Assembly: GCF_029633865.1 (NCBI RefSeq)
Contig: NC_079217.1
Location: 53,521,979 to 53,585,978 of the forward strand
Length of the DNA stretch: 64,000 bases
DNA from: Lampris incognitus
Lineage: Eukaryota > Chordata > Actinopteri > Lampriformes > Lampridae
Direction: 5' to 3'
In this document: piece after piece, positions 4,905-64,000 of the stretch
Numbering within the stretch: position 1 is the first letter of the stretch
How the letters are laid out: the number at the start of each line of letters is the position of its first letter
Made by a program: the position numbers and the translations under genes
The notes under the pieces: generated by a model
What the model saw: the letters and a program-made list of their open reading frames with translations, nothing else
Database searches by the model: none
Told to the model about the DNA's origin: nothing

Positions 4905-5299
4905 TCAAAGAATGATATTGCTTATGGGAGAGTTCCTGCAACCAGTCCAGCTCAGATCTTGGGCCCAATGGCCTTCTCTTGTGACCCGCACCTTAACTGG
5001 GTCAAATCTCCAGAACCGCTGCTCCCTGAACAGGTAGAGGCAGCCGTCTGGACGGGTCAGCGCCCCGTTTGTCCCCTGTGGCACACCACTCCAGTCTGTC
5101 AGCTTTCGGGGGTAGTAGGGCTCCGAGTGCAGCGTTCTGAGGTTCAGGACAGAGTAGCGGGAGCCCTTGAGGAGGACCATGTGGCCGAGAGGGGCGTAAT
5201 AGAAAGCACAGTCGGGATGCTGGGGGAGCCCCAGCTCACTGCTCCTCCGGGGGAACCCTGGGTCCAGCAGGCTGCCAGAGTAGCGCCACAGCCGCTTAC
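4905..5299 (-). CDS. mmp28: mmp28 exon 8 (last hemopexin blades, stop)
   Basis: The acceptor is TTGTCTAG and the exon joins in phase 1. It encodes residues 390-520, including [10 protein letters not shown] and [10 protein letters not shown]. The final Cys of the hemopexin disulfide lies in WTGC near the C-terminus. The stop codon is TGA at 4905-4907 on the - strand. Confidence 0.92.
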
Positions 5300-5454
5300 C
5301 TAGACAACCCAGATGCCAATATTGAAAATATAAGTCACAGATTCCAGAAGGTGACAATTGTAAATTTTACAGCAATGATTTACATGAAGCACATCATATT
5401 TCAACTGTAATGGACTGGTGCCCCATCCAAGGGGTTATCATTGCGCCCAGTGCA

Positions 5455-5523
<69 letters not shown>

Positions 5524-6697: not shown

Positions 6698-6739
<42 letters not shown>

Positions 6740-9700
6740 CCATCCATTACAATACTTCTGATGCTTCGAAGGGTCAAACCCTACTGAAGGTTTATTTCTT
6801 GGGTTTTTACAGTTGCTGTAGCTACGTTCTGCCACAAGGGGCGATGTTGCTAGCTGCATGCTGCGTGTTCCGGCCGGACCGTGGCCAGCGTGTCGTTGCA
6901 GGCGGACCTTACCCACGGTGATGGCGTCAAAGATGCCCTGGCAGTACTCGGGCCGGGACGTGTCGTTATCCCCCACGGAGGCGGCTGTTTGCTCCCATTC
7001 CTGCAGCGCAGAGCGGAACACCTGGCCGGCCAGCCGCACCGGCCGCCCCCCCGCCGGCTTACCTGAGGGCAACAAGGCTCGCAAGTTCACATACTGCTTC
7101 AGGAGGAGGAAGACGAAGAAGAAGAAGAAGAAGCTTAGTGGTGTAAACTAGTAATAAGACAAGTTAGCCCCTAGTTAACGGGTCTGACCCTTTAGCCGAG
7201 CGGTTAGTGACGTCCCCTTGTGGTGCAGTACACCTCGTATCGAATCCCGCACCGGGCAAGAAAATAACCGGTTACATTGGTGGCAGCGGTGGGATACGGA
7301 AGTGTGCAGATCCTCAGAAGTCTCTTGGGGGCGCGGGAATAACAAAGCGCGAGGGCGCGCTTCCGGGGAGGGTGACGACTGTAAACTATCAATAAGACAC
7401 GTTAGTCCCCAGCTAATGGGTATCAAATCCCGCACCGGGCAAGAAAATAACCGGTTACAGTGGGAATAATAATAATAATATGTACATAGCAGTTTTCTAA
7501 AAAATTTTTTACAAATTGCTCTACAAAGACATACAACCAGACAAGGCAAAAGTAAGCGTAAGACCAAATAAGTAAGAGTAAAAAAAAAAACAGTATAAAT
7601 AAATTAAAACAAATATCAAACATTTGTAAATGCTTTCATAAAAAGAAAAGTTTCAACTCAGTTTTATTTACAAATTCGCTTCAGGGGGCTTTACAGCAAC
7701 ATCGGATAAAAACCAAAAAAAAACCTTTTAAGAGGGGGAAACAATGGGCGGAAAGCTTAGGGGGAGCAACAGAGAAGGGGTCTCTCTCCCAAGACAGACA
7801 GACGTGTAATGGATGTTGTTTACACAATGTACACAATACAACATTGAAAGAGGATAACAGAATTATAAGGGAGTTGTAAACTATATGAAGACTGGTGAGG
7901 AGGAGGCCAAGCAGTGTAGAGACGCCGCTTGAACAGCCCAGGACCTGAGCCGCGCAACCACCGTCACCATGTAAACAAAACAAACAAGTGTAAACTACTA
8001 ATAAGACCCGTTAGTCCCTAGCTAACGGGTCTGACCCTTTAGCCGAGCGGTTAGTGACGTCGCCTTGTGGTGCAGTACACCTCATATCGAATCCCGCACC
8101 GGGCAAGAAAATAACCGGTTACACTAACAAAAAACACGTTAGTCACACGTCTGAGTGTGAGAAGGACGTAACACTGACACAGGACACGCCGCGAACTCAC
8201 GATTGCAGCGCCCAAAAAGGAAGCTCCGAGGGCGGCCTGACGGGACGCGGAGGCAGGGCAGGCTAAGCTAACTGCTAGCCCGTGCAGACTGGCAATTCCT
8301 CGCCTGGCGTTGACTGTGTTTTAGTGTCGTCGTGCGGGGAGGTGTGTTGATGAGGGTGTCTGGCTGGGAGAGCTGGCGTTGGATCTGCTGAGGGAGCCTG
8401 GTCTGCTGTATCCGGTGGGCCAAGGGACCACGGCCCTGACCGGAGCTGCACCCGAAGAGGAAGCAACGAGGGCGGGCGGTGCGCCCTCGACAGCGCGGCA
8501 GGCTAAGCTAACTGCTAGCCCACGCAGACCAGCAGTTCCCACAGTCATCCCGGCTGGCTGGCGTTCGCTCTCTGGACAGTGATTTATTTTTTGGACTGTG
8601 TTGCACTGAGTTAACTGTTTGTGTGTTGTTGTTTGTTTTGTTGTTGTTTTTTTTATTTGTTCTCTCTGTTTTTGGTGATGTCGTTTTTTGGAGGTTTTTG
8701 ATGTGTGTTTTAATCTTTCACTGCTGTGGGCTGGGTGAAACGAAATTTCGTTTCTTTTGTGTACGCAAGTATATTATAAGGTGCATGGATATGTGACACG
8801 TTGGTCCTTGCCTAACGGGTCGGACCCTTTAGTCGACTGGTTAACGTTGTTGCTTGCGGAGCGGTAAACACGGGTTCGCGTCCCGGCTGTGGCGGTTCCC
8901 GGACTGCTCCACGAATTTGCTACATTGGTGTCAGAAGTGGGATGGTGAGACCATGAGGTCATCGGAAGCGCGTGCGCCCAGAGGCGTGAGGGCGCTGATA
9001 TGCTGAAGGGAGGGTGGTAGTGTAACGTGCATGGATAAGTAGACACGTTGGTCCTCGACTAACGGGTCGGACCCTTTAGTCGACTGGTTAACGTTGTCGC
9101 TGGCGGAGCGGTAGACACGGGTTCGCGTCCCGGCTGTGGCGACGGTCTCTCAGACTGCCCCCCGAATTCGCTACAATATGAAAAAAACAAAAGTAAATTG
9201 TTCCTGATTGAATTATATGGATTTATAAAATATATAATAAGAAAATGTGATGAGGGGGGTGCCAAGCAGTATCCTGGTGGCGACCACTATCACCATGGAA
9301 ATTGGTGGTCTTAAATTTTTGCTTCTATGTAACTATAACATTGACAAAATTCCCCTCAAACTTTCTTCGTTCCACAAACAAATGTTACTGGCATGGTGTC
9401 TAATTTACAAACACAACTTTTCTCCTCACAAGTTTTTTATTTGGAATAATAGATATTTGCTGTATAAAAACAAATCTATCTTTTTCAAACAGTGGTTTGA
9501 CAACAATATTCTTTTGATTAGTCAGTTGTTTAACCAACATGGGCAACTTTACAATTATGTTGAATTCATTCAACATTATAGATTCCCTGTTACACCTAAA
9601 GAATTTTCTATTGTTTTTGATGCTGTTCCCTCTGGTATTGTTTCAATTTTCAAAGGTGTTAATGTGAATGTTAATCTCCCTATATCAGTAGATGTAACTG

Positions 9701-12700
9701 AAACAACTGCTGGGAAAGCATGCTTTTCATGGAACACCAAGAACAAAAACAAGATTATTCGTCAAATGTTTCAACAAGATATTATTAGCTCACCCTCTGC
9801 CTTATCTTATTGGTCTGCCTTTGTTGGTGAAAAAATTGTTTGGGAAAAAATTTGGCTTTTACCTCATAAGTTCCTCTTGACTAATAAAGTAAAAGACATA
9901 TCTTTCAAAATTATTCATAGATTCTATCCAACTAATAATTATTTGCAGAGACTTAAGAAGGACATTGATGTGAGTTGTTCTCTTTGTGGTTTGTTTAATT
10001 GGTTCATTTATTTTGGTCTTGCCCACACACTAAACAACTGTGGAGTAGGTTGTCTCGTTTGATTATTGATCATATTTACCCTCATTTCACCCAGAGTTGG
10101 AAAAATGTATTGTTTGGATATACTGAATTTGATAGGAACCTCGATTCTCAGTTTTATTTAATCAATTTGCCAATTATCTTAACAAAATTTTATATTCAGA
10201 GATCTAAATTCTCTAGCAAGAAACCTAATTTTCCTGAGCTGTCTGCGTATATCAAACAATATATTTCATCAATATCTGATAGTGAAAATAAAAAAGCTGT
10301 AAAAACATATAAGCACTTTATGATTTACAAAATATTTAGTTAAATATGTAATTTATTTGTTTTACTTTATACAACCCCCTGGCATATTTATGTTAATGTT
10401 TATGATAATATATGTGTTAATGTTTTATACATTTGATAATGTGACTATTGTTGATTGACATTGTTGTATACTATTTTTGTACACTTTTGTTAATAAAGTT
10501 CTTTAAAAAAAACTATCACCATGGAGACTTGGGAGGAGGACAGACAACACGTGCGCACGGGGGAGACTCACACCACACCATTCACATACACAGAAGAAGA
10601 AAAAGGAGAAGACGTAATTAAGCGAGAGAGAAAAGACGTGAGAGAAGAGAACAGTTTGCAATAGTCATAACCTATACGCTATATGTAATCTGGTCGGCAG
10701 AACAGTGGTTGGTAAATTCACTGAGACAGAAACCGACCCGCCATGCAGTACAGGTTGTGAAGCACTCAACTTAAAGACAACTAATTGGTAGGTTAAGGCA
10801 GAAAGATGAGTTTTAAGTTTGGATTTAAAGGACTCAACAGACTCTTATTGTCTGACAGCAGCAGGCCGAAGAAGAAGAAGAAGAAGATGATGATGATGAT
10901 GATGATGCAGCGGCAGCACTGCTTCAATCTCCCATGATTCACTTGTTCATCTTGTACAGACTTGGTAGGCGGGTAAATGTCACATTTGTAGAAAATGTAG
11001 GTAGAGCTGCTGTAGTTTTGACCACATGCAGCATTTAAACGATGCTTTCCGGGAAGTGGCCGGCTTGGTGTTTACACACCGGGAGATACCGTACCGCACA
11101 GGAAGTGAAGACCGCACTCAGAGATACCATACATGTAAATCCTCACTTGTAGTGCTAAAAAAATACGAATCCATTTTCATTTGGGGGCCTGTTTTCCCCC
11201 TCGTTAACTCGCACATTCCCCGGCCCTCGAATCAAAGTAACGATGTGAACTGTAAATGCAAAGCAAGGGAGCTGCTCGGCGTTATGAATAGTTTGTGTGT
11301 CGTGATGGTGCACGAGACGTCATTATGGCCATTTTGTTTGCAAGGCGCTGAACAAACATTTGTCTAAGAGGAGGATAAAATCAGCGCTCCCCAGGAAACA
11401 AAGGCAGACGGGAGGGGAACTGGATGTACAGCTGGCCTGGAGGATACACCACAGCCATACTATAGGCTTGGGTCCAGCTGCTCGGCCGTGGAAACACATT
11501 TCATGAAGCTCCCGGTGAACACTTGTTGTGCTGACACTGCTTCCAGGGGCAGTGTGGCGCTCAGCAGTGAGTGTTGCAACGGAGGGAGACCATTTTTACA
11601 CACTTCATTACTCGCTGGTCCCATTCTGTGGTCTTATGTGTCCTACTGTTTCACGGCTGAGCTGTTGTTGCTCCGAGATGTTTCTGCTTCACAGTAACAG
11701 TTGACCGGGGCAGATCTAGCATGGCAGAAATTTGATGAACTGACTTGTTAGAAAGGTGGCACCCTATGACGGAGCCACGCTGAAAGTCACTGAGCTCTTC
11801 ATTACGACACATTCTGCTGCCAGTGTTTGTCTATAGACGCCGAATGGCTGTATGCTTGATTTTGTGCATCTACCAACAAATGGGTGTGGCTGAAATAGCC
11901 AAATCCACTCATTAAAAGGGGTGTCCATATACTTGTGGCCATATTTGACTCATTAGTTCATTAATGAATTCATGATTCATTACGGTTGTTTCAGACATCT
12001 GCTTCTCATCAGGTCACAGTGACATTACCAAGCACCTGGGAGAGTTCACACACACACACACACTCACACAAGGCACTTCTCCTAACAGCTGGGACACTTG
12101 TCCATGATTATTTCTGGTATCGCTTAAAGTGTAAGTGGGAACAGCTGAAGTCTCCTGGCATGACCAACTAGGTGAAAATCAGGCCGACAACCACTCTATT
12201 CTGCCAGATGACTGCATCACAAGATGACCGGTTATAACAGATTATGACAGACACAACCTTCCTGGATATCCTAACTAAAAAAACAATAATAACTCTTTAT
12301 GTCATAATACAGCACTGCCCTGCTTTCTGTATCAGTGAACCTGTGGTTATCTTTATAGTTTGATTCACAAGCATTTCCACCCCTAAAACACATAAAAACT
12401 CAGCGTAACGTGATAAAGTGGTCAAACATGAAAGCTTTCTTACCTATGAGTACTACTTACGACCTCTGATTACTGGTTTTAGATATTACTGGCTAATTTC
12501 CCTGTGATTTAATTGGGGTAGTTTTTTTAGGACCGTTGTTCCCTTCAAAAGAATAAAATTGGGAGGATGAGGAGGCGTGCTAAAATGTCCCCCCCCCTTT
12601 TTCTCCCCAACTGTATCCTGCCAATTACCCTACTCTTACGAGCTGTCCCGGTCACTGCTCCACCCCCTCTGCCGATCGGGGGGGGGGGGCTGCAAACTAC

Positions 12701-14353
12701 CACATACTTCCTCTGATACATGTGGAGTCGCCAGCTGCTTCTTTTCACCTGACAGTGAGGAGTTTCACCAGGGGGACGCGGCGCGTGGGAGGATCATGCT
12801 ACCCCCCCCCCCCATTCCAGTGAGCCCCATTTGACTACACGTTATTGCCTTGTAGTCAACACAACGCTATCCTTAAGCGGTTTGGATAATGGGTGGATGG
12901 ATATATGCATCTATATAACGGGTGAATGACAAAGGCCCTACCTAAGGCAACAGGTTTGGGAAATGGGGCTTTAACAGCATTTCCATGGGGAGAGCAGATG
13001 TTGTCCTTCAGATACAAAGCAAACAGAAAGGCATCTGGACTTGACCTGCCTGCAAAAGTCTGCTGAATTATCCAGGTTTCTGCATGATTAACGCCATTGG
13101 ACCTGGTTGAGGAGGAGAACGGGGGGGGGGGGGGGGGGGTCACATTTTCGCCGCTCTGTTTGCAACACATTGTGCATGAAAGGTTTGGTGTTTAAGCGAG
13201 TGAAGACTTGGATGTGATGAGGGGGCACCAAGTAGGGCTGACTGTACAAGCCAAGGCGAGGAGGCCAAGCAGGATGAGAAACCAGACGGTTTAAAAGAGA
13301 GTTTGTTACGAAACCCTTGCAGCAAGATGAGTTTCAGTGTGAAGTCAGAGAACAGAACGTAACTGATGAGAGGCCTCTCCTCAGCCGCACATGTGGGAAC
13401 CTGTCCTACACATGCCGTGAGGGGACAGCACGCTCACACTTATCACAAATGTGCTTGTGTTTGCGCAGTTGAGTCCTGTGTTGAGATGGAAGACAATCAG
13501 GTCACCGAGTCTGCGCACATGAATGTGGTGTGGTGTGGTGTGGTGTGGTTGGGTGTGGTGTGGTGTGGTGTGGTGTGGTGTGGTGTGGTGTGTGTGGGGG
13601 GGTCTTGTCAAGCAGAGATAGCATGTTAACTGAACTTAGATGACCTCTGCTGCCCATCTTGTTTAAACTTCTGTCTCTGTCTGTCCTGGATCTGTGGCCC
13701 CAGAACAGCAGGGAACAGACTCTTCATATCCTTTATTTATTACTGCAATTATGTTTTTTCATGTATACCAGTAGCATCTAAGGACCCTCATGATTAAAAT
13801 GTATTAAAAGAATTTTCATAGTCCACAAAAGGCAAAAGTTATGTCTTATAAGGGCCTTATTACCTATGAACTAATGCTTATTATAGTCTTATCAATGGAT
13901 AACAATGTCAATAAGCACTTTGCAGGGACCTACAAGGGCCACATTACATATCAGCTACATGCGCTTAATGTAAAGCGCTCCTGAAAAAATAATCCTTGCC
14001 AGTACAAGTGAGCAGGTTAAGTTTTCATTTTGTATGCAGATTGGATTTACAACCTCAGACGAGTGTGGAAAGGTAGGTTTTGCACATTTCGCATGCGTCA
14101 CCTAGTGGCCGAAAACGTGTTTATTACGCTATCATTAACACTTCGTAGCACGGTCGCCTCACAGCAAGAATGTCCTGGGTTCAAGCCCGGGGTAGTCCAA
14201 CCTTGGTGGGTCGTCCCGGGTCGTCCTCTGTGTGGAGTTTGCATGTTGTCCCCGTGTCTGCGTGGGTTTCCTCCGGGGGCTCCGGTTTCCTTCCACAGTC
14301 CAAAGACACGTAGGTCAGGCAGATCGGCCGTACTAAATGGTCCCTAGGTGTGA

Positions 14354-14445
<92 letters not shown>

Positions 14446-17400
14446 CGGCCCTGTGATGGCCTGGCAGCCTGTCCAGGGTGTCTCCCTGCCTGCCGCCTAG
14501 TGACTACTGGGATAGGCTCCAGCATCCCCACGACCCTGAGAGCAGGGTAAGTGGTTCTGATAATGGATGGATGGATGGATGGATGGATGGATGGATGGAT
14601 GGATGGATGGATGGATGTTTTTTCATGTATACAGGTAATTCTAACATTTTTTGTGAGACCTGTTGTTTTGTTTTGTTTTTTTCCATATTTTGCCTGCGAC
14701 AAAAATCGATCAGCTCTAGGTCGCATAGGTTTAAAATGTGATGAGGTTTCATCAATCCATGTTTGGCACAGAAGGGTAAGCTGTACATGGTTTGATTAAC
14801 GGGTCTGTCATATAATTTCACCCCATCTGTCGTAGAAATTAGCTTTTAACACAGGAGACCTCCTTGGAGAGACTGAGCACAGAACACCATCTGAAAAGCT
14901 GAATGACTTTCTTGACCCTGATCACTCCTCTCCTCCTCTCCTGTGGTTGCTGTTAACGGCCTTGGGGCCTCTCCCTGGCATTTTCACAGCTCGGTGACTT
15001 GACTCTGAATGTTAATGAGTGTCAGAGGAAGAAGTCACACAATCCCGCTTTACTCTCCGTTCCTTTATACCTGTCAGAGAACATGAAGTCTGGCTCCATA
15101 ACGAGTTAACTTTAATGGCGGGATAAAATGTTTTGCATCCAAACAATGGAAATCCCACACGCATTTCACTATGCCAAACTAAGACCAGGATCTGTCTGAG
15201 CTGGGGTCAGGGAGTGAGACATTTGTCGCCCATTTCACCGAGGGCCTTTTTCCATCGTCCCTAGAGAGACCTTTGACCTCAAGTTAAAGTGATCAAAATA
15301 TTTCTGGACACACAGTGAGGAGAGCCGCCATGAACGATGCAAACCAGTAACATCTGTCCCCCCGCTGGCCACAAATTAAATACCACCGGTCATTCCTCAT
15401 CCTTTAAATGACTTTGTCTATAAATATATATATATAGACAAATTTGAAGTTTTTTTCTTGTTTGATTTTGTCAAATCCTAACTGCACTGGGAACCTTTCT
15501 TCAGATGCTCTGATGGTAACTAAGTAATTTATATTTGTTCCCTGTTTGCTCTTGTTGCAAGTCATCTTCAATACACATCAAGTTAGAGATGGGCAGTATC
15601 GGGCATCTGGGTAGCGTGGCGGTCTATTCCGTTGCCTACCAACATGGAGATCACCGGTTCGAATCCTCATGTTTCCTCCGGCTTGGTTGGGCGTCCCTAC
15701 AGACACAATTGGCCGTGTCTGCAGGTGGGAAACCGGATGTGGGTATGTGTCCTGGTCGCTGCATTAGCGCCTCCTCTGGTCGGTCAGGGTGCCTGTTCGG
15801 GGGGGAGGGGGAACTGGGGGGGAATAGCGTGATCTTCCCACGTGCCACGTCCCTCTGGCGAAACTCCTCACTGTCAGGTGAGAAGAAGCGGCTAGCGACT
15901 CCATATGTATTGGAGGAGACTTGGAAGTCTGCAGCCCTCCCCGGCTCGGCAGAGGGGGTGGAGCAGCGACCGGGACCGCTCAAAAGAGCGGGGTAATTGG
16001 ATGGGTACAATTGGGGAGAAAAGGGGGGGGCTGGGCGATATTGATATAATATCGATATCGTGAGATGAGACTAGATATCATCTGGGATTTTGGTGTGAGT
16101 AACATCAGAATCCGAACACTTCATTCATCCCCGAGGAGAAATTGGGGATATGCTGCCATAACTTAAAGTGTTGTCAGGCCCTGGTCTTAGACACTGCATT
16201 ACAGTACAGCAATACAATCCTGTGAACTTATTCCACTGTTTTAGCTGACTGAATCAAACAATCAACACGTCTACCTGCTTGGTCAACATATCCGCATCAC
16301 TAACAATCATTTATCAAACCTTTCTTGTGTGTTGACACTGTCACATTATCAATTTTGAGGTATTCAGTAAACAAAAATCTTTGGTATTTGTTTTTTTTTG
16401 GGGGGGGATTTTTCTCCCCCTTTTTCTCCCCAATTGTATCTGGCCAATTACCCCACTCTTCCAAGCCGTCCCAATCTCTGCTCTACCCCCTCTGCCGAGC
16501 CGGGGAGGGCTGCAGACTACCACGTGCCTCCTCCGATACATATGGAGTCGCCAGCCGCTTCTTTTCACCTGACAGTGAGGAGTTTCACCAGGGGAACGTA
16601 GCGCGTGGGAGGATCACGCTATTCCCCCCCAGTCCCCCCCCCGAACAGGTGCCCCAACCGACCAGAGGAGGCGCTAGTGCAGCGACCAGGACACATACCC
16701 ACATCCGGTTTCCCACCCGCAGACACGGCCAATTGTGTCTGTAGGGGCGCCAGACCAAGCCGGAGGTAACACGGGGATTCGAACCGGCGATCCCCGTGTC
16801 TGTAGGCGACGGAACAGACCACCACACTGATTCGGTCAATATCATCCGCCCCTACATCAACTATGGATATCTTGCATCAGCTAAACCTGTCAAATGTAAC
16901 GGTAACGCCCCCTCACCATAGAGCTGCTGCACTGCGGTGACGTCGTCCCAGCTCAGCACCAGTTTGCGGCCCAGCTTCCTGTAGTACGGCGACATGAGGG
17001 CGTGACGGACAGGAGAGTGCTCCAATCCCAGGGTGTGTCCGATCTCATGGGCGGTCACCATGAACAGGTTGTGTCCCTTGTGCCCATTAAGGGTCCACCT
17101 CTCTGCCATGTCGAAGTGGGCTTCTCCCCGGCGGGGGAGGAAGGCATGGGCCAATGTTCCTCCTGAGGAAAAATGTTACAGCAGTCGGTGTAGGAAGGTC
17201 ACCTGAGCTGTATGTTTTACAGTTCAACAATTATACATTTAGTGAATGGGATCAACTTTTGTGTTCACAAAAAATGGACAGCTAGGGATAGTTTGGTAGA
17301 ATAGACAATACCTAACCAGCACACTAGCACATAGCTAAGGATGCACCCCACACTGGCATTAAGGTACGAGGTGCTCGTGTCAGGTGCAATGACTCTAAAT

Positions 17401-19738
17401 GATTGTATTTCTCTGAAGTAGTGGAAATTCATGAGAAGATAGTAAAAAACCTTTAGAAAACTACAAATCTAGCTCTTTGGCTACCAGAATTGACTAATGA
17501 CACTTTGTGATAAGCATACTCGTCCATGTGGGATGTTTATGTGAAGAAAAACAGACCATCCAGCTGCTTGGCTGTATGGTTCATAGAACATGTTTACTCA
17601 GCGGGTTTGGATATTGAGCAAATTGAGATATTAAGATACTCTGTTTCTTTCTCTTTTTTTCCATTTTCCCCATTTTCCCCCAATTGTACTTGGCCAATTA
17701 ACCCACTCTTCCGAGCCTTCCCGGTTGCTGCTCCACCCCCTCTGCCGATCCGGGGAGGGCTGCAGACTACCACATGCTTCCTCCGATACATGTGGAGTCG
17801 CCAGCCGCTTCTTTTCACCTGACAGTGAGGAGTTTCACCAGGGGAACGTAGCGCATGGGAGGATCTCGTTATTCCCCCCAGTCCCCAAACAGGCGCCCTG
17901 ATCGACCAGAAGAGGTGCTAGTGCAGCAACCAGGACACATTTGCACATCCGACTTCCCACCCGTAGACACGGCCAATTGTGTCTGTAGGGATGCCCGACC
18001 AAGCCGGAGGTAACACGGGGATTTGAACCAGCGATCCCCATGTTGGTAGGCAACGGAATAGATCGCCACACCATCCGGACGCCCCTTCTGTGTTTCTTTT
18101 GGGCTTTAGTTGAAGATACATCCTCCATCAGGTCTCTTCACATCATTGCACAGGCTGTTCAGGAGACAGCATCTGCTCCATCTCCATTGTGATTTAGTGA
18201 ACAAAAGTGTTCACAAGCCTAAAAACATTACGCACTCATTATTTTCAATGTTCTTAAGATAGACTCAATACATAGTAAGAATCAGGGATGGTCTCCTATC
18301 CTGGAGACACACATGAATAAACACTGAATTAAAGACTCGCCATTGACCTGTCCTGCAAATACCTGTGTCATCTCTGACAGGCCCCTGCTATTCTGGCTCC
18401 GCGGTTGACTGTACTGTATTCTAAGGGATTTCTACCGACTCCACTGCCACACAGGCAACTGTGACACAACAGAATTTAGCTGGGAGAAACTGTGCCGCTG
18501 GACCCCCACCTGGTCCATCGAAGGCGTTGCTGGCCCCGTCGTTGTGGTCTCCCTCGTAAAAGGCCAGCCGGATGTCTGCGTGGCCCTCAGGGACCTCCTG
18601 GAAGACCAGGCCCGACACATTGCTCCACAGCTGGAAGGCGGCACGCACCGCCAGCCGTACAGGAGCCGGGGACAGGTGGCGAGGCCAGTTCACTATCTGA
18701 TAGGTCAGGTGGCGCTTGTACCACTTCTCACCTAAAGGGCGCCCACACAGAGAAGACAGTTAATTGTTGTTTCATTGTTTGTCATGGATCCGTTACCCTA
18801 CGTAGAGAAGAGCCATATTGGGCAGCATGGTGGCCCAGTGGTTAGCACTGTTGCCTCACAGCAAGAAGGTCCTGAATTCAAACCCCAGGCCATCCCATGG
18901 CCTTTCTGTGTGGAGTTTGCATGTTCTCCCCGTGTCTGCATGGGTTTCCTCCGGGTGCTCCGGTTTCCTCCCACCATCAAAAAGACATGCATGTTAGGGT
19001 TAATACCCTAATACCCAGGGTCTGTGCCCCTGAGCAAGGCAATGAAAAGAGGAACTGGAGTTGGTCCCCGGGTGCTGCAGCTGCCCACTGCTCCTATACT
19101 ATAGGATGGGTTAAATGCAGAGAACACGTTTCATTGTAACCAAACAACTGTACAATGACAAAAATAAAGCGGCTTTCCTCTATTCTTCTCAATTAAAGTT
19201 TCTATAGTATCTAATCCTAAAATTGGGCATCACAAAAAGAATTATTCAACAAAGCCCAGGTTAAATGCAAATGCTGTGAAGTGTGGACATGTTTCAAAAC
19301 GATAGGATGCTAACTGTGTTAGCCACCGGAGCTCAGCTGGGTAAATTCACATGCGCTCTAAGTACACGCTTCAGTGAGCAATTTACTAAAACCTGTGTTG
19401 GCGGTTTCTCAAATCAGGCACGATTACATATGTGGTGAACAACGCCACACTCGCACACATTTCTTCAGGGACCGACCAGAATGAGGGTGAGTGAGGCGGA
19501 GCGCAACGTTCAGCGTTTCTTCCATTTCCGTGACGGTAATCTCTTGGTGTACACAGAGGATTTACACAATGTAATAATCTAGGAGGCAAAGCAAACATGT
19601 CTGCCCCAACAAACACACACAAACACACAGCCACAAACACACACATCATCATCATCATCATCATTATCATCATCATCGGCAGCCAGCCAGCCAGACAGAC
19701 AGAAAGACACGGACAGACAGAGAGACAGACAGCCAGAC

Positions 19739-26000: not shown

Positions 26001-29000
26001 CACAAAATGCACACATACACATGCACACATTACCTTGTGCAGAGCGTTTCTTTCGGAGATGTGGTCGGCGGACAGGTGCTCCTCTCCCGGTGAAGATAGC
26101 TTCCACCCTCTGGGTCCACACCTGGTGACTGCCTTCATCTGTTACCCCGCAACGTGGCTCCGCCATCTGCCTCAGGGTGGCGCTGTCGAGTCTGCCCGTG
26201 ACGGGCAAGCGGGACAGCCACTGGAACTCCCTGTGGTGATCGAATAGTTTGCATGATAATGAATTGGTGTACAGTTCATTTCATCGGAAACTCCGTTCAA
26301 TGAGGTTATTTTACAATGCCAAAACAGAATTCATCATACAATTTGGAAATGAACGGTGACTGGATCCTCCTTATCGAACCAGAGAAATCTGAACTGGACA
26401 TCATGAAATCCTGCTGTGCACATGTTTACGCTGACAATTGTTACTGAAATGAGCGAAGATCTGTTTTGGTGTTGACACGACTGGCCTGTGCATGAGCATA
26501 AAGACCTCTGAACTGATTAGCTAGCTCCAATGCTTACGTGGTGTAAACATGGCTCCAAATTCAAGGAGCTGGAACCAAGCAAGGCAGAGATAATGTTGTA
26601 ATGACCACGGATGATTAGACTCGCTAGCCCTTAGCTAACAGATCCGGACCCTTTAGTCGACTGGTTAGCGCAATCGCCCATGGTGCGGACGACCGGGGTT
26701 CGCGTCTCGGCTGCGGCGGATTCCCAGCTGCCCCCTGAATTCACTACATTGGAGTCAGAAGTGGGATGGCAAGACCGTGAAGCCACCAGAAGCTCGTGAG
26801 CTCAGAGGTGTGAGGGAGCTGATATGCTGAAGCGCGGGGACGCGCGTCCCGAGGGAGTGGGGTAGTGTGACGACCACGGATGACTAGACTCGCTAGGCCT
26901 TGGCTAACGGGTCAGACCCTCTAGTTGACTGATTAGTGCAGTCGCCCTGGGTTAGCGTCCCTGCAGCCCCCCTGAATCCGCTACATTGCTGTTAGAAGTG
27001 GGATGGGGGGACCGTGAGGCCATCGGAAGTGCGTACGCCCAGAGGCGTGAGATAGCTGATACGTTGAATCGCGGGGACGTGTTTCCCGAAGGAGGAGGGG
27101 GGGGGATGTAATGACCATGGATGACTAGACTCGCTAGTCCTTGCTAACGGGTCGGATGCTTTAGTCGACTGGTTAGCGCAGTCGCCCATGGTGCGGGTGA
27201 CCTGGGTTCACGTCTCGGCTGCGGCGGATACCTGGCTGCCCCCTGAATTCGCTACAATATATACATTATTCATAATTGCATATGGATGACAGATTTGTTG
27301 TTGGAACGAGTTGAAGTAACTTTAAAGTGTGGAAGTGAAATTGATTTCATTAACCCGTCACTGTCTGTCGAAACACACAAGTAGGCAACCGTGTCAGCTA
27401 AGAAGACGGACCTGTAAGTTCATACTACAAGTTAGCTCCATCGACTATTACAGACTTCGATAGGCTCAGTTTTGTTTTTTTAAAGCGAGCCAATTTTCGG
27501 ACACAACCTCCAAGACACCAGATTTTGACTAAGAGTGGCAGGTTACACAATTGCATAGTGGCATTGCTTAACATTCAGTACAGGCTTTAGGAAAACGGCA
27601 AAGGTTTTCATTCTTTGCTACTTTCAAACATTTCCTATTACAGTTAGCAGTTAGTATACAGGCCAGAGGGTGAGGCTGCTGAAATTCCTGACTGGTTCAG
27701 AAAGAGTTCAGGACAGGAAGTTTCCCAGTGCCCAGGTGAGGGTCTTGAGCTGTGTTGACTTTCATCCTGAGGGTGTGTAACCCCCCCCCCCCATATAAAC
27801 ATTTAAAACACAAACCTGGGACTTTAAACAGCACACACATACTCTGGAGCCCTAAACAATTCCCCTGGATGGAACTGAACAAATTTGTCCTGTATTCATT
27901 GGCTTTGGCATCAAACGATAACAAATACAAAAGCCTGCATACTTTGCAATTTCCATGCAAAGACAAATGAGGTTCGTCTCATTTTGCCAAACAGTCAAAT
28001 CGATGCAGGTCTCATCGTTGGCCATTGTACTTTTAGAGTCAATTAAACGACCAGGACTTCACTCCTACCTAAAACGACCATGGGCGGTCAAAATGACCGC
28101 TGGTGTTTAAACTCTACATTCTGTCAAGAAAAATACCCAACTGAGATATTAATGCATTGCATATGTGAGTATGCTGTTAGGAAACGACTGACACCAAATT
28201 TAACATTTTAACAACTATAATACTATTTTTAAACAATTTAAACTTCAGACAGCCATGGTCGAACTTGAATAGCAAAATTGAAAAAGTGAAAATATTACCT
28301 GAAAAACAAACAGAAAACACATATTGCTAATCTAACAATCTTAAAAAGGCCTATAAAACGTGAAATGTAAAAAAGACCTCAAAATTGTTGTTATTCTCGA
28401 TAATAATGAGGCAGAGAGTGAGGTTGCCGTTAACACGTTTACTTCCGAACAAAAACCACACACTTCCGTATAAGTATTCTCATTCTGATTCTGATTACTT
28501 GGCTACCGCACTTAACTGTGGTTAACCCATTATACAACCTACTACTACTACTACTACTTTCGGCCGCTCCCGTTAGGGGTTGCCACAGCGGATCATCCGT
28601 TTCCATTTCTTCCTGTCCTCTGCATCTTCCTCTGACACACCAGCCACCTGCATGTCCTCCCTCATCACATCCACATCCCTCACCAAATCCTCACCACTCT
28701 CTACTGGTGCAAGGGGCATTCATTCATTCATTCATACTGTCTTACGTTGAAGAGTAAATGCACTGATATTCACCTCTCCTCCCAGACTTACAAAATGGTT
28801 GCATTAAGTCAAAAGACCTTTCAAAAGACAGCATAATTTTAGCCTTTTAACACCCGCCCCCCCCCAACCGCAAATAGGGGACCCCCCATGACTGGTCACT
28901 CAATTCGAGCACTGCATAAACCTCCTCTTTGGCCTTCCTCTTTTCCTCTTCCCTGGCAGCTCCATATTCAGCATCTCTTCTCCCAATATACTCAGCATCT

Positions 29001-32000
29001 CTCCTCCACACATGTCCAAGCCATCTGAATCTTGCCTCTCTTGCTTTGTCTCCAAACCGTCCAACCTGAGCTGTCCCTCTAATATAATCGTTCCTAATCC
29101 TGTCCTTCTTCGTCACTCCCAATGAAAATCTTAGCATCTCCAACTCTGCCACCTCCAGCTCCGCCTCCTGTCTTTTCGTTAGTGCCGCTGTCTCCAAACC
29201 ATATAACATAGCTGGTCTCACAACCATCTTGTAAACCTTCCCTTTAACTCTTGCTGCTACCCTGCTGTCGCAAATCATTCCTGACATTCTTCTCCACCTG
29301 TTATACAACATCTCTCCCTTTTAAGTAAGAAAAATTTTCCCTCTCTCTAGCATTGAACATAAAATGCTTAGCCTTATTTTTTTTCCACATCAATAATCCC
29401 ATTCATTTCTTTTGAACTAAAACTGCTTTAACTGAAATAGCAACACGTGTAACACTTATGTTTCTCACTAACGTGCACCTTTATTCGTCCAGTCTCTTGG
29501 GCAGACCTAAGTCTCTGTCTGATCTTGTAACATATGTGGTGTCAGGATCACCTGCCGTTTTGTCCACACTACCTGCGTCTGTGTCATCTTGGGCGTTTGC
29601 ACCAGATGTTGACTGATGAGTTACACGCAGATGTGTGCAGTTTCTTCTCAACAGTCCAATCTCTGGTCTGACAATGTATGACCTCGGGGCTGCTGTCTGT
29701 TGAGTGACAGTCTCATGAGTGTTCTCCGTGGTGATCCATACACTTCTGGCCTGGGTGCAAGTCAGGTAAGTAGTGTGTTCTGTTACATTTGTTGTAGAGT
29801 TGCTCTTGTTCTTTTCTTGCCTTGTGTCTCCATACTCTGGAACTGCTTGATGTTGGGCTAGTGTGGAGACAACATTTTGGGCACTTGAGGCAGAGTGGTC
29901 CTTAGCTGTCTCCCCAAGAGAAGCTGTGCTGGAGAATAATCATTCTCCATTGGAGTGGCTCGATAACTGAGTAGAGCTTTAGCATAATCTCCTCCCTCTT
30001 TCCACAAGCCTTTCACGGTGGCCACAGCTCGCTCAGCCTCTCCATTGGCTTGTGGGTATCTTGAGCTGTTGGTTATGTGAGTGAATCCATTCTCCTTGGC
30101 AAAGTCTTTGAAAAGAGTACAGGCATACTGTGGGCCATTGTCTGACAACAGCAGCTCTGGGACCCCATGCCAACCAAAGATGTTCTGCAGAGCTGATATG
30201 ACTGTGTTGGTGGATGTAACATGGAGATTGGCAACTTCAATGTATCAGGAGAAATAGTCAACCACTACAAGGTAGGCGGTCTTATCCCAGATGAATATGT
30301 CTGTACCCACACATTGCCACAGTCTCTCAGGTACAGGAGTCGTCAACAGGGGTTCCCTCTGTGCTGTTCTGTGTTTTGTGCATATGGGACAGTTTTCAAC
30401 TTTGTGGCTAATGTTAGCTGAAAGCCCTGGCCATCAGACTGACTGAAAGGCCCTGGCTCGGCACTTCACTATCCCTTGGTGGCCCTGATGGAGGATGTCG
30501 AGCATTTCTTCTCTTAACAAGCTGGGGATGACAATTCTTTGTCCTTTCAGGTGAAGAACCCCAGCCAGGGCCAGGTTCTGTTTCTCCTTCCATTATAATG
30601 CTATATCAGGTGCCAGGTGGGCTTTGTCAGGCCACTCAGTGCGACAGTAGTGAATTAGTGTACTGCAGATGGGGTCTTTTTTCTGTCTCTCTGCAAGCTG
30701 GTGCAGTCTAGCTTCAGTAGCTGGAAGAGACTGTCTGATTGGGTCCACAAATATTTGGATGTCTGCTTCCTACTCCTTCTCTATCTGAGTGACTGTATAC
30801 TCCACTGGTGCTCGTGACCGTGTGTCTGTGGTGATGAGCAGCTTTCCAGGCACATGTACAATGTCATATGAGAATTTCAACAGGCTCAGTCGGAATCTCA
30901 GGATTCAAGGAGAAAGCTCATACAGTGCCTTAGTACTTAGTAGGGGCAGCAGAGGTTTGTGATCTGTCTCAATTGTGAACCTCATACCAAGCAGGTACGA
31001 TTGTGGGCACTCACATGACCAGGTCACTGCTAGTGCCTCCTTCTCAATCTGAGCATGGTGTTTTTCAGCATTAGAAAAACCTCTGGAGATGAACACAACT
31101 GGCTTCAAGTCACTACTCTCTGGGCATTTCTGGAACAGAAGGGCTCCCAGACCGAAGGACGATGCGTCATCTGACACACACGTTTCTGCATTGGGTGAGT
31201 ATACAGTGAGGACTCTGGGTGAGCTTAGTTCTGACTTCAGCTTCTGAAAAGCCTCTCGTTGTGGTGCTCCCCAACACCATTCTGTCTTCTCAGACAGAAG
31301 ATCTTTCAGAGGTTGTGTGAATGATGCTAGGTGGGACAGGAACTTGCCCAGGTAATTAGCCATGCCCATCACTCTTCTGATGTCAGCAACGCAGGCTGGC
31401 TCTGGCATTTCCAGAATGGCTTTAACCTTGCTTGGGTCAGGGTTGACTCCCTCGGTGGTGATGCAGTGTCAAAGAAACATAATTTTTCTCCTGGCAAATT
31501 CATATTTGTCCTTGTTCCGAGGTAGCCCTTCATCTCTCAGTCTCCTGAGTACCTGGTGTAGCCAGGTATCATGTTCAGCTTGGTCTTTGCCATACACCAA
31601 ATGTCATTGACATGGCATACCACTCCTTCGCAGTCCTCCAACATTTGTGTCATCCGTCGCTGGAAATGTTCTGGGGCTGAGGATATCCTAAATGGCAGCC
31701 TGTTGAAATGGTAGCGACAAATGGGATTATGAAGGTGGCCAAGAGAGTGCTGTCTTCGGTCAAGGGAATTTGTCAAAATCCTGACATGGCATCCAGTTTG
31801 GTGAAAACTTTCGATCCTGAGAGCATAGGTAGCGTGTGATCCACAGCTGTCAGGATATGTCTCTCCCACTTGACCCATTTATTCAAGGGTGTCAGATCTA
31901 CACACAGGCTGCTATTCTCCTTTGATCTCACTTTGGGCACAACCACTAGGCCGGCCCACCATGGAGTGGGTTGAGTGACCTTAGATATCACTCCCATTGC

Positions 32001-35000
32001 TTCCATGTGATTCAGTTCTGCCCTGACTTTATTCCACATTGGAAGAGATACTCAATGTGGGGCAGACAGCCCCACGTTGGGGCAGACAGCCCCAACTGCT
32101 GGTGTGGCCCCTGGCTCCAGTTCAATTTTGTATGAGTCCTTCAGCTTCCCCAACCCTTTGAACACCATGGGGTATTGATTTCTGACATCTTCACCCACCT
32201 GAACTGTGTGCACTCGTTTAACAAGAGTCAAGGCCTCAATGGCTAGAAGCCCCAACAGCAGTTTCATCAGGTTGACCGCCACATAAATGTCCTGTTCAGT
32301 TATCTTGTTTCCAAACTCCAGTTTTCCTTTGAAATATCTTTTTACATTCAAAAGCTGCCTGCCTGGACCATACAGGGGTATCCTGGGTGGCTGCAGTTTC
32401 CCATGCTTGTCTGTGGAGTAATGGTGGCTCAGAATAGCTGTAACTCCAGCTCCAGTGTATAATTTGAACTCTGTTGTCTCCCCATTCAACTCAAGAGTTT
32501 CTGTCCGCTCATGTTCAACACCGTCAATTTCAATAACCCCCTCACCAAGAAAGGTGACATCTTCTGCTCCATGGTCCGTCCGCAGAATCTTCTGTGATAT
32601 CACAGATGCCACCGGCTGATTGACAGTTCCGGGCAAAATGTCCTTTTCGTTTGCATTTACGGCATTCCGCATCTTTGACAGGGCAATCCTTCCACTGGTG
32701 CTTTATTGCGTTTCCACATCTACCACAACCTGTATTTCTGTTTTCATTTTCTGGCTTGACTTGTAAGCTGTATTTTTGCCCTTTTGTGCCTCTTTGGGTC
32801 TGTCGCCTTGCACTTATTGCATTTAAGTTCTCTAACTGCTTCTCATTTAAGATGCCCTGTTATAGGCTGCTGCTTCTTTATTTCCTCAATGTGATGCACT
32901 CTGGCTATAGTTTTGACTAATGCGAGTTCAGGATCTAACTGCAATGACTCAAGATAGTTTTGCACCTCTTAGACCAACAACTATTGTGTCTCTGATCAGT
33001 TCTTCTCTTGGATCTCCAAATGCACAACAATGCTCTGCTAGGCTATGGACAGAATAAATCCTTCAGCACTTTCCCCTGGCTCTTGATTGCACCTGTTAAA
33101 CCGTGCACGTTCAAAAATAATGTTCCTTTTGCTCACACAGTGTTTCTCAAAAGCCTGCTTCACATCTTCATAAGAGTTTCTCTGATCATGACTTAAGAGC
33201 AAGACGTTCAGTATTTCCTCAGCTTCGTCCCCTAGAGTGTACATCAGTGTATTTACTTGATATTCTTGTGTCTGTTTATCCAGGCTTGACACTATTCTGA
33301 AGCACTCGAAACGTCGTATCCACTTTGGCCATCCGCTTGCATTATTTGAATCAAACCTGCCTGGTGGAGTCAACTGCACGCTGCTTGCCGGAGCTGCTGC
33401 TGCTTGTCCTGGCTGGCTCATCTTTCCTGCCTTGCCTCGGTGACATTGCTAGCTTGTTCGTATAAGGTTAGCTCGTTTAGCAACTCTTCACACGGGAGGA
33501 CGTGCAGAGCAGCGTTTTTTTTCCTTCAAACTCTTATGGAGACGCATCTATCTCCTCCCCTCATGCGACTTTACATGACTTTTTCCAGCTTCACTCTGAC
33601 GCCATGTTATGTTATTCTCGATAATAACGAGGCAGAGTGAGGTTGCTGTTAACACGTTTACTTCTGAACAAAATCCATACACTTCCGTATAACCCTTGAC
33701 CTTGTATCTAATTGGCTACCACACTTAACTGTGGTTAGCCCGTTATACAACAAAAATAAAGGTTGAAACAGTCCCAAACAACGACCGGAACTTAAAAACT
33801 ACTTGAACGACCGTGGGCGGTCATTTTGACCGCCACGGTTTTTAAACTCTATATTCGGTCAAGATAAACACCCAGTTGAGATATCAATGCATTACATGTG
33901 TTAGAATGTCTGTTAAGAGACTAACTGACACCAAAATTAACATTTTGACAATTTTTGACACTATTTTTCAAACAATTTAAAATGGCCGCTGTCCTATGCC
34001 TGTAAATACTGCAGCGCCTCATGGTGCGTCTGTACCCAGACATGTTGGCAATAATCAAAAATCAGATGTGGACTATTACTCTGCACTGGAGAAGGCTTTA
34101 TATTTCTTTTCTAGGACAGAGCGATGACCCTCGCGGAGGAAATGATGCGACCACAATACGTCATAAATAGTGACATGACGCGCACGATCGTTTTAGATAG
34201 ACCTTATAACTTTTTTTTTGGTGCAGTTGATCTAAAACTCATTTAAAATGCAAATACGTGCAATTTTAGGAGAATTCAGGGAACGGCAGGTCTGTATCCA
34301 CCCCCCCACAGAGTTATTAAAAGTTGAAAATCCAAAACGGTCACAATGACCGCCGTAGAATATGCGCAAACCAAAGATGGCGGACTTTTTCAAAATGGCG
34401 ACCAACTTTATTCATTCACTCAGCTCAGTCTCATCTGCCTATAATCCCACCATGCTTTCGACTATTTTTTATTTTTTTGTCCCAAACTCGAATACCCCTC
34501 CATCAGCTGTCCTGCTTTAGAGGATGGATTTACAAACGAGCCAATCAAACCTATTTATTTATAATAATTTATAACCCATTTATTGTAACTGTGTGTTTTT
34601 AAAAGTGCTATATAAATAAAATTGTATTTGTTTTAACTTTGACGTCATCTAAATTTCCTTCTCTTGCGAGACTGATCTGATTCTTAAGTGTGCTTTTTGA
34701 ACAGAACCAACTCGTGACGCTGGGATGTGGGGGTTCACAACTTTGTGAAGGAAACAAGAGTGCACTGAATGAATAACTGGTCACACCTACCGAATGGCTG
34801 ACTGCACCTCGGCTGTGCTGTGGATGTGGTTGTCCTGATGCAGGTAGCCATATTTTTCCAGATAAATCTGCAATCGTAATATCACATTTGCATCACTGAA
34901 TCATTGTGCAGACAGGGTTACTGTGAAACAGTTAATGAGTAGGCTGCAAACACCTGTACGGTCTCTGTGGGAGCTGCCTACGTCCCACTTGACACAGATG

Positions 35001-38500: not shown

Positions 38501-59882
<21,382 letters not shown>

Positions 59883-60526: not shown

Positions 60527-60898
60527 TATAACCGGTTATTTTCTTGCCCGGTGCGGGATTCGATACGGATGTATTGCGCCACAAAGCGACATCACTAACC
60601 GCTCGGCTAAAGGGTCAGACCAGTTAGCTAAGGATTAACGTGTCTTATTAGTAGTTTACAGTCGTCACCCTCCCCGGAAGCGCGCCCTCGCGCTTTGTTA
60701 TTCCCGCGCTCCGAAAAGACTTCTGAGGATCTGCACACTTCCGGATCCCACCGCTGCCACCAATGTGACCGGTTATTTTCTTGCCCGGTGCGGGATTCGA
60801 TACGGGGTGTACTGCACCACAAGGCGACATCACTAACCGCTCTGCTAAAGGGTCAGACCCGTTAGTTATGGACTAACGTGTCTTATTAGTAGTTTACA
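60527..60898 (-). mobile_element. Miniature LTR retrotransposon, family A, full-length copy
   Basis: In element orientation (-) the 5' LTR is 60898-60764 (135 bp), the internal region 60763-60661 (103 bp) and the 3' LTR 60660-60527 (134 bp). The internal region starts TTGGTGGCAGCGGTGGGAT, matching tRNA-Leu(AAG), and ends in a purine-rich tract. Both LTRs hold A and B boxes. The outer flanks are tcaa and tcat (3 of 4). No ORF is present. The 3' LTR terminus is decayed (TTATA for TTACA). Confidence 0.85.
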
Positions 60899-61458: not shown

Positions 61459-64000
61459 GTGGTCACTGTTGAAACCAGGTCAGTCGCCTCTATAACATCC
61501 AGCAGATCAACAGCTAGCAGAGCTACTGCGGCTCGCGCTAAAGTTGAAGCAGCTCGCGCACTAGCTAACTTTGCTAAAATGGAATCAGAAATAATGATTG
61601 AAAAAGCCCCCATAGAAGCAAGATTGAACACACTGAAGCATGAAAAGGAGGTGGCAGCAGCCATTGCTGAGGCTAGTGTGCTCAAAGAGGCAGCAGAAGA
61701 GTTTGAAAAAGGTGATAGACACTCAGTTGTTGAAGAGGCAACTGAAAGAACGCGCCAGTATGTTGAACACCAGCAACTGCACCATCTGAAAGCGTCAACC
61801 CTTATTCACAGCCCGTAGAGCCTATTGCTCACGTAATGAGACCTGGGACTCAACCCAGACAACGCTTCACCACTTGTGTCTCCAACAGGAGAAATGGAGC
61901 ACTTCTAGGCAGCGTCGCTTCAAAGGTCAAATAACCTGCTTCATCGCCCTTCTCCAGCACAGCCGTCAGCCAACGCAGTTCAGTGCTCATTCAAAAGAGC
62001 CATTCTACAACAGCCACTAGATGGCACTGCTGAGATTAGTAATGTAGCGAGATACTTGGCACGCAGAGATCTTATCACCTCTGGTCTCACAATGTTTGAT
62101 GACTGCCCCGAGAACTACTGGGCGTGGAAATCTTTCCTTAATGCGACTGATGGATTGCAGCTGAGCGCCAGTGAAGAGCTGGCTCCTCATTAAGTGGCTG
62201 GGGCAGGAATCTGCAAAACATGTAAGGAGAATAAGAGCAGTGCTTGTTCGTCATCCTCCTGCTGGATTAAGCAAAGCCTGGCAGCGTTTAGAAGAATGCT
62301 TTGGGGCTCCAGATATAATTGAGAAATCACTCTTTGACAGGGTCATGAACTTTCCAAAGGTCAGTGGTAAAGATCCTGTGAAGCTGAGAGAGCTTGGCGA
62401 TCTGCTGCAAGAGGTAGAAGCTGCCAAATTAGAGGGTCGCCTCCCTGGCCTAAGCTATCTCGACACTGCACGTGGTATCGCCCCAATAGTTGAAAAGTTA
62501 CCGCACAATATCCAAGAACGGTGGCTCTATCAGGGTTTTGAGTATAAGACTGACAATGGCGTGACCTTCCCTCCATTCTCATTTTTCTGCGATTTCGTCT
62601 GCAAAGAAGCACAAGCACGTAACGACCCAGGTTTCAGGCTGACAACAGGTAGCACAGATAACCTCAAGTCAGATGCGTCTGTAAAGAGACCATACAAAAG
62701 CCTAGTTTCTTCTCACAAGACAGATATACCACAGGAGAAGGGCAAGCAGGAAGGATGTAGCTATAAAGCAGGTGATGTTGCGAGACAGTGCCCTCTCCAT
62801 AAGAAGCCGCATCCCCTCAATCGCTGCAGAGGGTTCCGCAGCAAACCTATTGAGGAGCGTAAGGCCTTTCTTAAGGACAATGGTGTTTGTTTTAGATGCT
62901 GCTCCTCAACCAGCCACGTGGCCAAAGACTGCAACGCAGCCATCAAGTGTAGAGAGTGTGAAAGTGAGAACCACATCTCTGCTCTTTATCCTGGACCGCC
63001 GCCGTCTCCACTTTCTGGGCATGGCGGGGAGGGAACAGAAACAACACCTCAGCCTACTGTCTTGTCAAACTGCATTGAAGTCTGTGGAGAAGGTCAGAGC
63101 ACAAGGTCTTGCTCCAAGATCTGCTTAGTGAAGGTCTTCCCTAAAGTACACCCAGAAAGAGTGACAAGAGCATATGTTGTGCTTGATGACCAAAGTAACC
63201 GGTGTCTTGCCAGGTCTGACTTCTTTGACATGTGCAGTATCAAGGGGACTGCCTCGCCATTTACACTCCGTACATGTGCTGAACAACAGAGATGACCGGG
63301 AGAAGGGCTACAGGTTTTGTGGTGGAATCACTAGATGGAGCTTCGACAGTCACACTGCCTATGCTGATCGAGTGCAACAACATTCCAAGTGACAGAGCTG
63401 AAATACCAACTCCTGAGGCGGCACTACATCACCCTCACCTCAAGCCAATAGCACACTCTATCCCACCTCTCGATCCTAAAGCTAAGATCCTCCTCCCCCT
63501 GGGTCGAGACGTACTTAGAGTTCACAAGGTGAGAGAGCAACGGAATGGTCCACACGATGCCCCATACGCACAGAGATTAGACGTGGGATGGGTTATCGTA
63601 GGCAACGTTTGCTTAGGGGACGCTTACAAGCCTGAAGCTGTTCATACTTACCGCACCAATATCCTTGAAAACAAATGCCCTTCCTTCTTCAGCCCATGCC
63701 CAAACAAAATTCGCGTCATAGAGAAGTATGGGTCCAATTCTGAGCACAGACTCTTCCCCATCCCTGAAATGCTTGCACCCTATGAATGCACTCTAGGAGA
63801 AACCGTCTTTAATACAGCCAATGACAACAACAAAATAGGGCTCTCTGTTGAAGACAGACTTTTCCTGGATGTCATGAACAGAGAGATGTACATGGACGAT
63901 GGCAACAGCAGGGTGGCGCCACTCCCTTTCAGAACACCCCGCCAGCACCTCCCTCACAATTGGGACCAGGTCCTCACACGGCTGGCATCTCTCCAGCACA
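61459..64000 (+). pseudogene. BEL/Pao retrotransposon gag-protease region, decayed, runs off the window
   Basis: In three broken frames on + it reads as follows. The N-terminal Gag-like coiled region (61459-61818) has TASRATAARAKVEAARALA. The Gag/capsid-like part (62171-62880) has FGAPDIIEKSLFDRVMNFPK. A zinc knuckle has CFRCCSSTSHVAKDC. A Pao-type (A17) protease has VVLDDQSNRCLA, and the following frame (63292-64000) has GRRATGFVVESLDG and ALLHHPH-like segments. That frame is still open at the window end. A one-base frame change lies near 63290, and a stop-rich gap at 61819-62170. The reverse transcriptase and integrase would lie beyond the window. Confidence 0.8.

Follow-up and report, generated by a model that had tools for sequence, protein, structure and literature searches.

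A probable Helenus-type TRIM in Lampris incognitus with tRNA-like motifs in its LTRs and genomic fusions to its tRNA-Leu primer

tRNA-derived SINEs carry Pol III A and B boxes, lack LTRs, and have a LINE-type 3' tail. Helenus elements, in the sections of the published description compared here, are TRIMs with tRNA-derived sequence in their LTRs that occur in fungi, animals, and plants, and for which the term TRIMp3 was coined (Kojima 2024, PMC10886601). Those sections name coelacanth, sturgeon/paddlefish, zebrafish, and other Ostariophysi as vertebrate hosts; report 4-bp TSDs in animals and vertebrate PBSs for tRNA-His, tRNA-Leu, or tRNA-Lys; report tandem arrays, with thousands of zebrafish copies of LTR-11_DR; and treat Pol III transcription as unproven (PMC10886601). 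The description is repeated, in the part seen, in PMC12859917.

Here we analyze a 64,000-nucleotide stretch of the Lampris incognitus genome ('the window'). We consider it probable that positions 60527-60898 hold a single copy of a TRIM of Helenus type (TRIMp3), a non-autonomous LTR retrotransposon, with the proposed Pol III/Gypsy-in-trans cycle set out below. The host genome contains many Helenus-type elements, in three related LTR families that use two tRNA-Leu isoacceptor primers. A sequence-only reading of the locus had proposed a TRIM with a tRNA-type promoter and had known of no described family like it; the idea is sound but already published, Helenus with tRNA-derived LTR sequence being in print (Kojima 2024, PMC10886601, in the sections compared).

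Anatomy and copies of the element

The element at 60527-60898 (F1a) has the order LTR-PBS-INT-LTR when read on the minus strand, a strand absent from the sequence-only reading. Two LTRs of about 135 bp, with about 91% identity, lie around a 103-bp INT. The 5' LTR (60764..60898, -; 135 bp, TGTAAAC..GGTCACA) carries the A-box-like motif TAGCAGAGCGG (60837..60847, -), which fits TRGYNNANNGG, and the B-box-like motif GTATCGAATCC (60793..60803, -), which matches GGTTCGANNCC at 9 of 11 positions. The 3' LTR (60527..60660, -) carries, by A-box and A/B pattern searches, the A-box-like motif TAGCCGAGCGG (60599..60609, -) and the same B-box-like motif, GTATCGAATCC (60556..60566, -). The spacing from A box to B-box-like motif is 32-33 bp. 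The PBS, TGGTGGCAGCGGTGGGAT (60745..60762, -), is an exact complement of the 3' end of host tRNA-Leu-AAG including CCA; an 18-mer of this kind with up to 3 mismatches is expected 0.05 times per shuffled window. The INT (60661..60763, -) is non-coding, and a purine-rich tract, GGGGAGGGTGACGAC (60661..60676, -), precedes the 3' LTR. The anatomy proposed from sequence alone is confirmed in its LTR and INT lengths, non-coding INT, exact 18-base PBS, fitting A box in each LTR, and 9-of-11 B-box-like match downstream. Two of its elements hold in part: the TG...CA ends are present in the 5' LTR and lost from the 3' LTR of this copy, which ends GGTTATA with the CA mutated, and the purine-rich tract is present and, by eye, imperfect. 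The flanks, ATGA/TTGA, form an imperfect TSD (3/4).

An LTR profile search (matches >25 bits) finds ten related LTRs in the window, in three families (F1, F2, and F3). A second F1 copy, F1b (7142..7459, +), comprises an LTR (7142-7276), a PBS (7278-7295) within its INT (7277-7379), and a second LTR with an internal deletion (7380-7459, +), and has a perfect TSD, GTGG (7138-7141 / 7460-7463). There is also an F1 solo LTR (7989..8123, +), the flanks of which agree at 2/4 positions. The F2 copy (8775..9175, +) has LTRs at 8775-8924 and 9021-9175, an exact PBS of tRNA-Leu-CAG type (8926-8943), and a perfect TSD, ATAT (8771-8774 / 9176-9179). F3 is represented by a tandem unit, LTR-INT-LTR-INT-LTR (26597..27256, +), with LTRs at 26597-26748, 26866-26985, and 27107-27256, PBSs at 26750-26767 and 26987-27004 (+), and flanks, ATGT/ATAT, that match 3/4. 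The PBS is exact in F1a, F1b, and F2, and has 1 and 2 mismatches in the two F3 PBSs. The five INTs in the window are only 96-121 bp and hold no gag-pol of the kind that marks an autonomous Gypsy element. Pairs of a perfect A box and a B box with up to 2 mismatches, 25-55 bp apart, number 10 in the window, against 0.9 on average across 20 Markov sequences (six proper LTR pairs, three alternative A-like matches inside LTRs, and one unrelated pair at 55605, -), a count that is not one of independent events, since the window LTRs are related by descent.

Other features of the window include a SINE-like repeat at 15600-16030, with a near-perfect A box and a perfect B box (GGTTCGAATCC), which we take to be of a type common in fish genomes; ORF fragments similar to that repeat near 16.3-16.7 and 48.8-49.4 kb; open frames at 62165-63999 that by eye resemble BEL/Pao gag-pol and that have no Pfam match; and matrix metalloprotease exons (Matrixin and Hemopexin domains) at about 4900-18760 (-).

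A search of the host assembly (1.48 Gb, 537 contigs) gives 1549, 5068, and 3605 first-look candidates for the F1, F2, and F3 LTR queries, bearing out the proposal of a multicopy family. The 40 best per query were scored, and the resulting sets are biased toward copies nearest to the query. The 135,178 bases that flank 68 loci contain 15 further LTR matches, or about 7 per 64 kb; naive extrapolation yields about 1.6 × 10⁵ LTRs, a rough figure, since copies cluster and 4 of the 68 loci lie inside the window. Outside the host, we find no matches in phages, no matches to two patterns in viral contigs, and, in prokaryote genome contigs, a short degenerate pattern that matches three times, by estimate no more often than chance would give.

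The 4-bp TSDs expected of full-length copies are found in F1 and F2. Perfect TSDs flank 29 of 42 F1 units, and at least 3 of 4 bases agree in 36 of 42; this set comprises 40 loci, F1a among them, plus the two other window copies, counts one segmental duplication three times (L007, L008, and L012), and includes at least two loci, L011 and L030, where the script misplaced or missed ends. For F2, TSDs are perfect in 15 of 30 units and agree at 3 or more bases in 24 of 30; the F2 set of 31 also takes in the window's F3 unit (3/4). For F3 LTR chains the numbers are 1/30 and 9/30, in a set where 14 of 30 chains consist of one LTR alone and where the F3 unit of the window accounts for two of the 30 loci. 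Perfect TSDs have the form NTAN at 18 of 27 distinct F1 sites and 14 of 15 F2 sites, and the form RTAY at 13 of 15 F2 sites. Identity between the LTRs of a unit averages 0.947 for F1 (range 0.911-0.970; 36 two-LTR units) and 0.917 for the F2 set (range 0.864-0.980; 31 units), indicating that the sampled copies are not very young. Most F1 and F2 copies examined are two-LTR units of 371-417 bp, and at several loci at least 3 LTRs stand in a row. The features that characterize Helenus are found: a non-coding two-LTR unit under about 1.3 kb, A and B boxes in the LTR, 4-bp TSDs, a PBS, and, by eye, an imperfect PPT. We conclude that the miniature, non-coding LTR retrotransposon with tRNA-like A/B motifs in its LTRs that had been read from one copy recurs, with PBS and TSDs, in many.

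Promoter motifs in the LTRs

On the motifs that the LTRs carry, their use by Pol III is plausible. Loss of the A and B boxes across copies had been named in advance as a reason to give up this reading; this is not what is seen, since 60 of 88 F1 LTRs, and 42 of the 65 LTRs in the F2 set, carry the commonest A box unchanged. The A box is perfect in the majority sequence of all three families, and the B box is imperfect in all three, with 1-2 mismatches (GTATCGAATCC in F1, GGTTCGCGTCC in F2 and F3). By our own count, each majority B box matches 8 of 9 positions of the consensus GWTCRANNC. The B-box core is GGTTC in F2 and F3 and GTATC in F1; GGTTC is the conserved form in the Helenus description, in the sections compared. 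According to the proposed cycle, transcription by Pol III would begin in the 5' LTR, some 10-20 nt before the A box, and the transcript would pass through the INT and the 3' LTR and end at a T-run in the flank; Gypsy-type RT and integrase would be supplied in trans; and cDNA would be primed by tRNA-Leu and then inserted with 4-bp TSDs.

The main alternative, which we regard as possible but doubtful, is that Pol II transcribes the LTRs, whose tRNA-like motifs would be relics of a SINE or tRNA that had inserted into an ancestral LTR. The B boxes fit this alternative: they are imperfect in the family majorities, indicating that amplified source copies already had the imperfect form, and 57 of 88 F1 LTRs carry GTATCGAATC. 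Comparison between families points the same way, since the A and B boxes do not stand out in conservation from the rest of the LTR (the A box has 8/11 invariant positions, a level matched by 32/125 windows along the LTR, and the B box 7/11, matched by 57/125). Stable structure is also lacking: none of four LTR RNA folds is better than shuffles, and we reject a structured LTR RNA. Against transcription by Pol II, all 10 window LTRs lack TATAWA and AATAAA/ATTAAA (TTTT is absent from all 10 as well), whereas a distinct LTR described below, LTR-P, has AATAAA; and, as a weak point, the three A-box positions that differ between F1 and F2/F3 are all ones that the consensus leaves free. TTTT, a possible Pol III stop, occurs once in the F1a INT and is absent from the other four window INTs.

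Across F1, F2, and F3, the best-conserved LTR block falls outside the boxes, in the roughly 20 bp that immediately precede the A box; under the proposed cycle it would coincide with the Pol III start site and the beginning of R.

Similarity to tRNA was scored against human tRNAs, and by this yardstick six of seven LTRs score above all 300 shuffles and the seventh is reached by 6 of 300. For 400 random 150-nt stretches of the window, which may include TRIM elements themselves, the 99th percentile of the score is 32.0 and the maximum 44: the F1 and F2 LTRs (34-39) lie above that percentile and below the maximum, and the F3 LTRs (32 and 30) are not above the percentile. A search of the LTRs against Rfam finds no tRNA match at E values up to 10, and a SINE-head control likewise has none.

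tRNA-Leu primers and tRNA-LTR fusions

PBS typing in 100 loci (L004-L103; LTR matches >60 bits, PBS with up to 4 mismatches) shows a clean split by LTR family: the PBS is of tRNA-Leu-AAG type in 43 of 43 F1 LTRs with a PBS, and of tRNA-Leu-CAG type in 33 of 33 F2 and 13 of 13 F3 LTRs. A further 118 LTR matches in these loci have no such PBS, as expected for 3' and solo LTRs. Host tRNA genes supply both types. The genome contains 48 sites with the 22-base tRNA-Leu 3' end; ARAGORN finds intact tRNA-Leu genes at 4 of 15 sites tested, namely a tRNA-Leu-AAG gene with the 3' end ...CCACCGCTGCCA (L118), two tRNA-Leu-CAG genes with the 3' end ...CCACTTCTGACA (L114 and L116), and an AAG gene one base off (L106), and several further sites resemble, by eye, intron-bearing tRNA-Leu-CAA genes. 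The human tRNA-Leu-AAG 3' fragment is given, in the part of the source seen, as ATCCCACCGCTGCCACCA (PMC9161985). The split of PBS types by LTR family, together with the host tRNA genes, indicates that one LTR lineage has used two Leu isoacceptors. Two loci, L113 and L134, show by eye an F2/F3-like LTR end followed by a PBS of Leu-AAG type, a combination absent from the 89 typed LTR-PBS pairs. Derivation of the INT from tRNA-Leu was considered and rejected, with only INT1b versus tRNA-Leu-AAG marginal (5/500 shuffles) among 10 comparisons.

Eukaryotic tRNA genes do not encode CCA. In the 42 sites examined of these 48, CCA directly follows the tRNA-Leu 3' end at 21, CTA at one (L110), and neither at 20. 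At 15 of the 21 CCA sites the CCA adjoins the end of a TRIM LTR in reverse complement, for example at L142 468-515 and L148 479-526. BLAST shows this for 11 sites in 1-kb loci and for one L156 site, and inspection by eye for L122 and for L113 and L134, the last two being near-identical duplicates. The remaining sites are L111, where CCA-tailed tRNA-Leu is joined to LTR-P; a second L156 site, which runs into a TRIM LTR of opposite orientation; and L107, L132, L136, and L153, where CCA is followed by non-TRIM sequence. The order in the fusions is tRNA, CCA, minus-strand cDNA. Because the CCA is untemplated, the fusions provide physical evidence, beyond complementarity, for priming by mature tRNA-Leu: that is, they are rare genomic copies of elements still attached to their own tRNA primer. 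Reportedly, it was proposed in 1993 that SINEs arose from strong-stop DNA with its tRNA primer. Literature searches on neighbouring topics, none aimed exactly at tRNA fusions at Helenus LTRs, returned none in open-access titles and abstract openings.

The fusions may also record where copying of the tRNA ended. In the junction set (n = 22: L110 and the 21 CCA sites), the first retained tRNA base lies at index 39 (four junctions), 38, 40, 40, 41, 42, 43, 47, 28, 22, 60, and 61 in long loci or L156, and at index 41, 41, 52, 55, 56, 57, and 58 in the shorter loci, with ends good to 1-2 bases. Since index 38 is standard position 37, 12 of the 22 junctions (index 38-43) fall at or just after position 37, and the other ten fall outside. 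A binomial estimate for this clustering, corrected for the choice of interval, is 2 × 10⁻⁵; without two probable duplicates (10/20) it is 5 × 10⁻⁴. The search pattern required an intact A58 and is blind to misincorporation there. Eukaryotic tRNA-Leu carries m1G37. In the parts of the sources seen, m1G37 is listed as occurring in eukaryotes (PMC4033218), and HIV-1 plus-strand synthesis normally halts at m1A58 and, when m1A58 is passed, yields a minor product that ends at modified position 37 (PMC13191261). Our own reading of the junctions is that RT copied tRNA-Leu past A58, often stopping at modified base 37.

Candidate partner and comparison with known systems

The sequence-only reading had itself named a finding that would undo it: that these are merely the LTRs of a long, known Gypsy element. 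We judge this very improbable. The 4-bp TSDs and the tRNA-Leu PBS are Gypsy-like, and the 14 single-LTR chains among 30 F3 chains could be read in this way; against this, only three PBS-bearing LTRs (L069, L084, and L094) are without a second LTR within 300 bp, and complete units of 371-417 bp, with TSDs of their own, are found repeatedly. L084, considered as an autonomous copy, proves to be a rearranged TRIM in which ORF length nowhere exceeds 158 aa, and no coding element bearing F1, F2, or F3 LTRs was found. More improbable still are tandem SINEs, in which a double insertion mimics two LTRs: SINE-like motifs and runs of at least 3 LTRs do occur, but the exact PBS adjoining the LTR, the TG..CA ends, the 4-bp TSDs around whole units, and the CCA-tRNA fusions speak against them.

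For a Helenus-type TRIM mobilized in trans, the fusions bring a candidate partner into view. At L141 and L157, tRNA-Leu-AAG is joined to LTR-P, which is about 255 bp, runs TGTAACC..GGTTACA, contains AATAAA, and lacks both a perfect A box and a B box at up to 2 mismatches. At L158 (C1:36251800-36256050), the reverse strand at about 50-532 reads LTR-P, then an F1 INT that is complete (104 bp, 94%), then an F1 LTR that has both ends and is internally shortened (121 bp, 84%), with flanks ATAG / GTAG (3/4 match). In L158, a single unit, LTR-P and F1 have the INT in common, and they probably replicate together. The LTR-P family is thereby a candidate partner, as a coding Gypsy or a Pol II-type TRIM. 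A different candidate, the Gypsy element at 28100-33910 (-) in the window, was rejected: its PBS, TGGCGTCAGAGTG, differs by eye from the TRIM PBSs. It is degenerate: RNase H and integrase appear as separate ORF fragments.

To the question of who mobilizes Helenus in vertebrates, LTR-P offers a concrete candidate answer, being Pol II-like and having the same tRNA-Leu-AAG primer and INT. As a speculation to which we give rather little credence, the TRIMs and LTR-P may share INT, tRNA-Leu primer, and particles, an LTR swap may convert Pol II-driven into Pol III-driven elements and back, and CCA-tRNA cDNAs may have been inserted repeatedly. If this were true, CCA-tRNA fossils would offer a general means of reading tRNA modification and primer identity out of genomes, and would display a tRNA-to-LTR fusion step able to bring tRNA promoters into LTRs.

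Compared with tRNA-derived SINEs, the elements described here are alike in being small and non-coding with A and B boxes, and unlike in having LTRs, a PBS, and 4-bp TSDs. Cassandra of plants, in the parts of its descriptions seen (PMC7215508, PMC10853983), is likewise a TRIM with a Pol III-type promoter in its LTRs and tandem arrays; here, in contrast, the boxes are of tRNA type (A/B), not 5S type, and the host is an animal. Rfam gives no match of any kind in the window at gathering threshold, and none to 5S rRNA in the LTRs up to E 10. The fusions resemble the HIV-1 plus-strand strong-stop product, as described in the part of PMC13191261 seen, in that they extend past A58 and, in about half of the cases, terminate at position 37 or just beyond it, and differ in being tRNA-Leu and fossil genomic copies, whereas the HIV-1 products are cDNA made in vitro or in infected cells. 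The closest likeness is to Helenus (zebrafish LTR-11_DR, coelacanth LTR1_LCh), a likeness drawn from features and description: in the sections compared, the two agree in TRIM size, a tRNA-like A/B region in the LTR, 4-bp TSDs, a PBS to a tRNA 3' end, tandem arrays, several families per genome, high copy number, and a presumed Gypsy partner. Among those sections, two features are found only here: the tRNA-readthrough fusions and the hybrid unit with a Pol II-like LTR.
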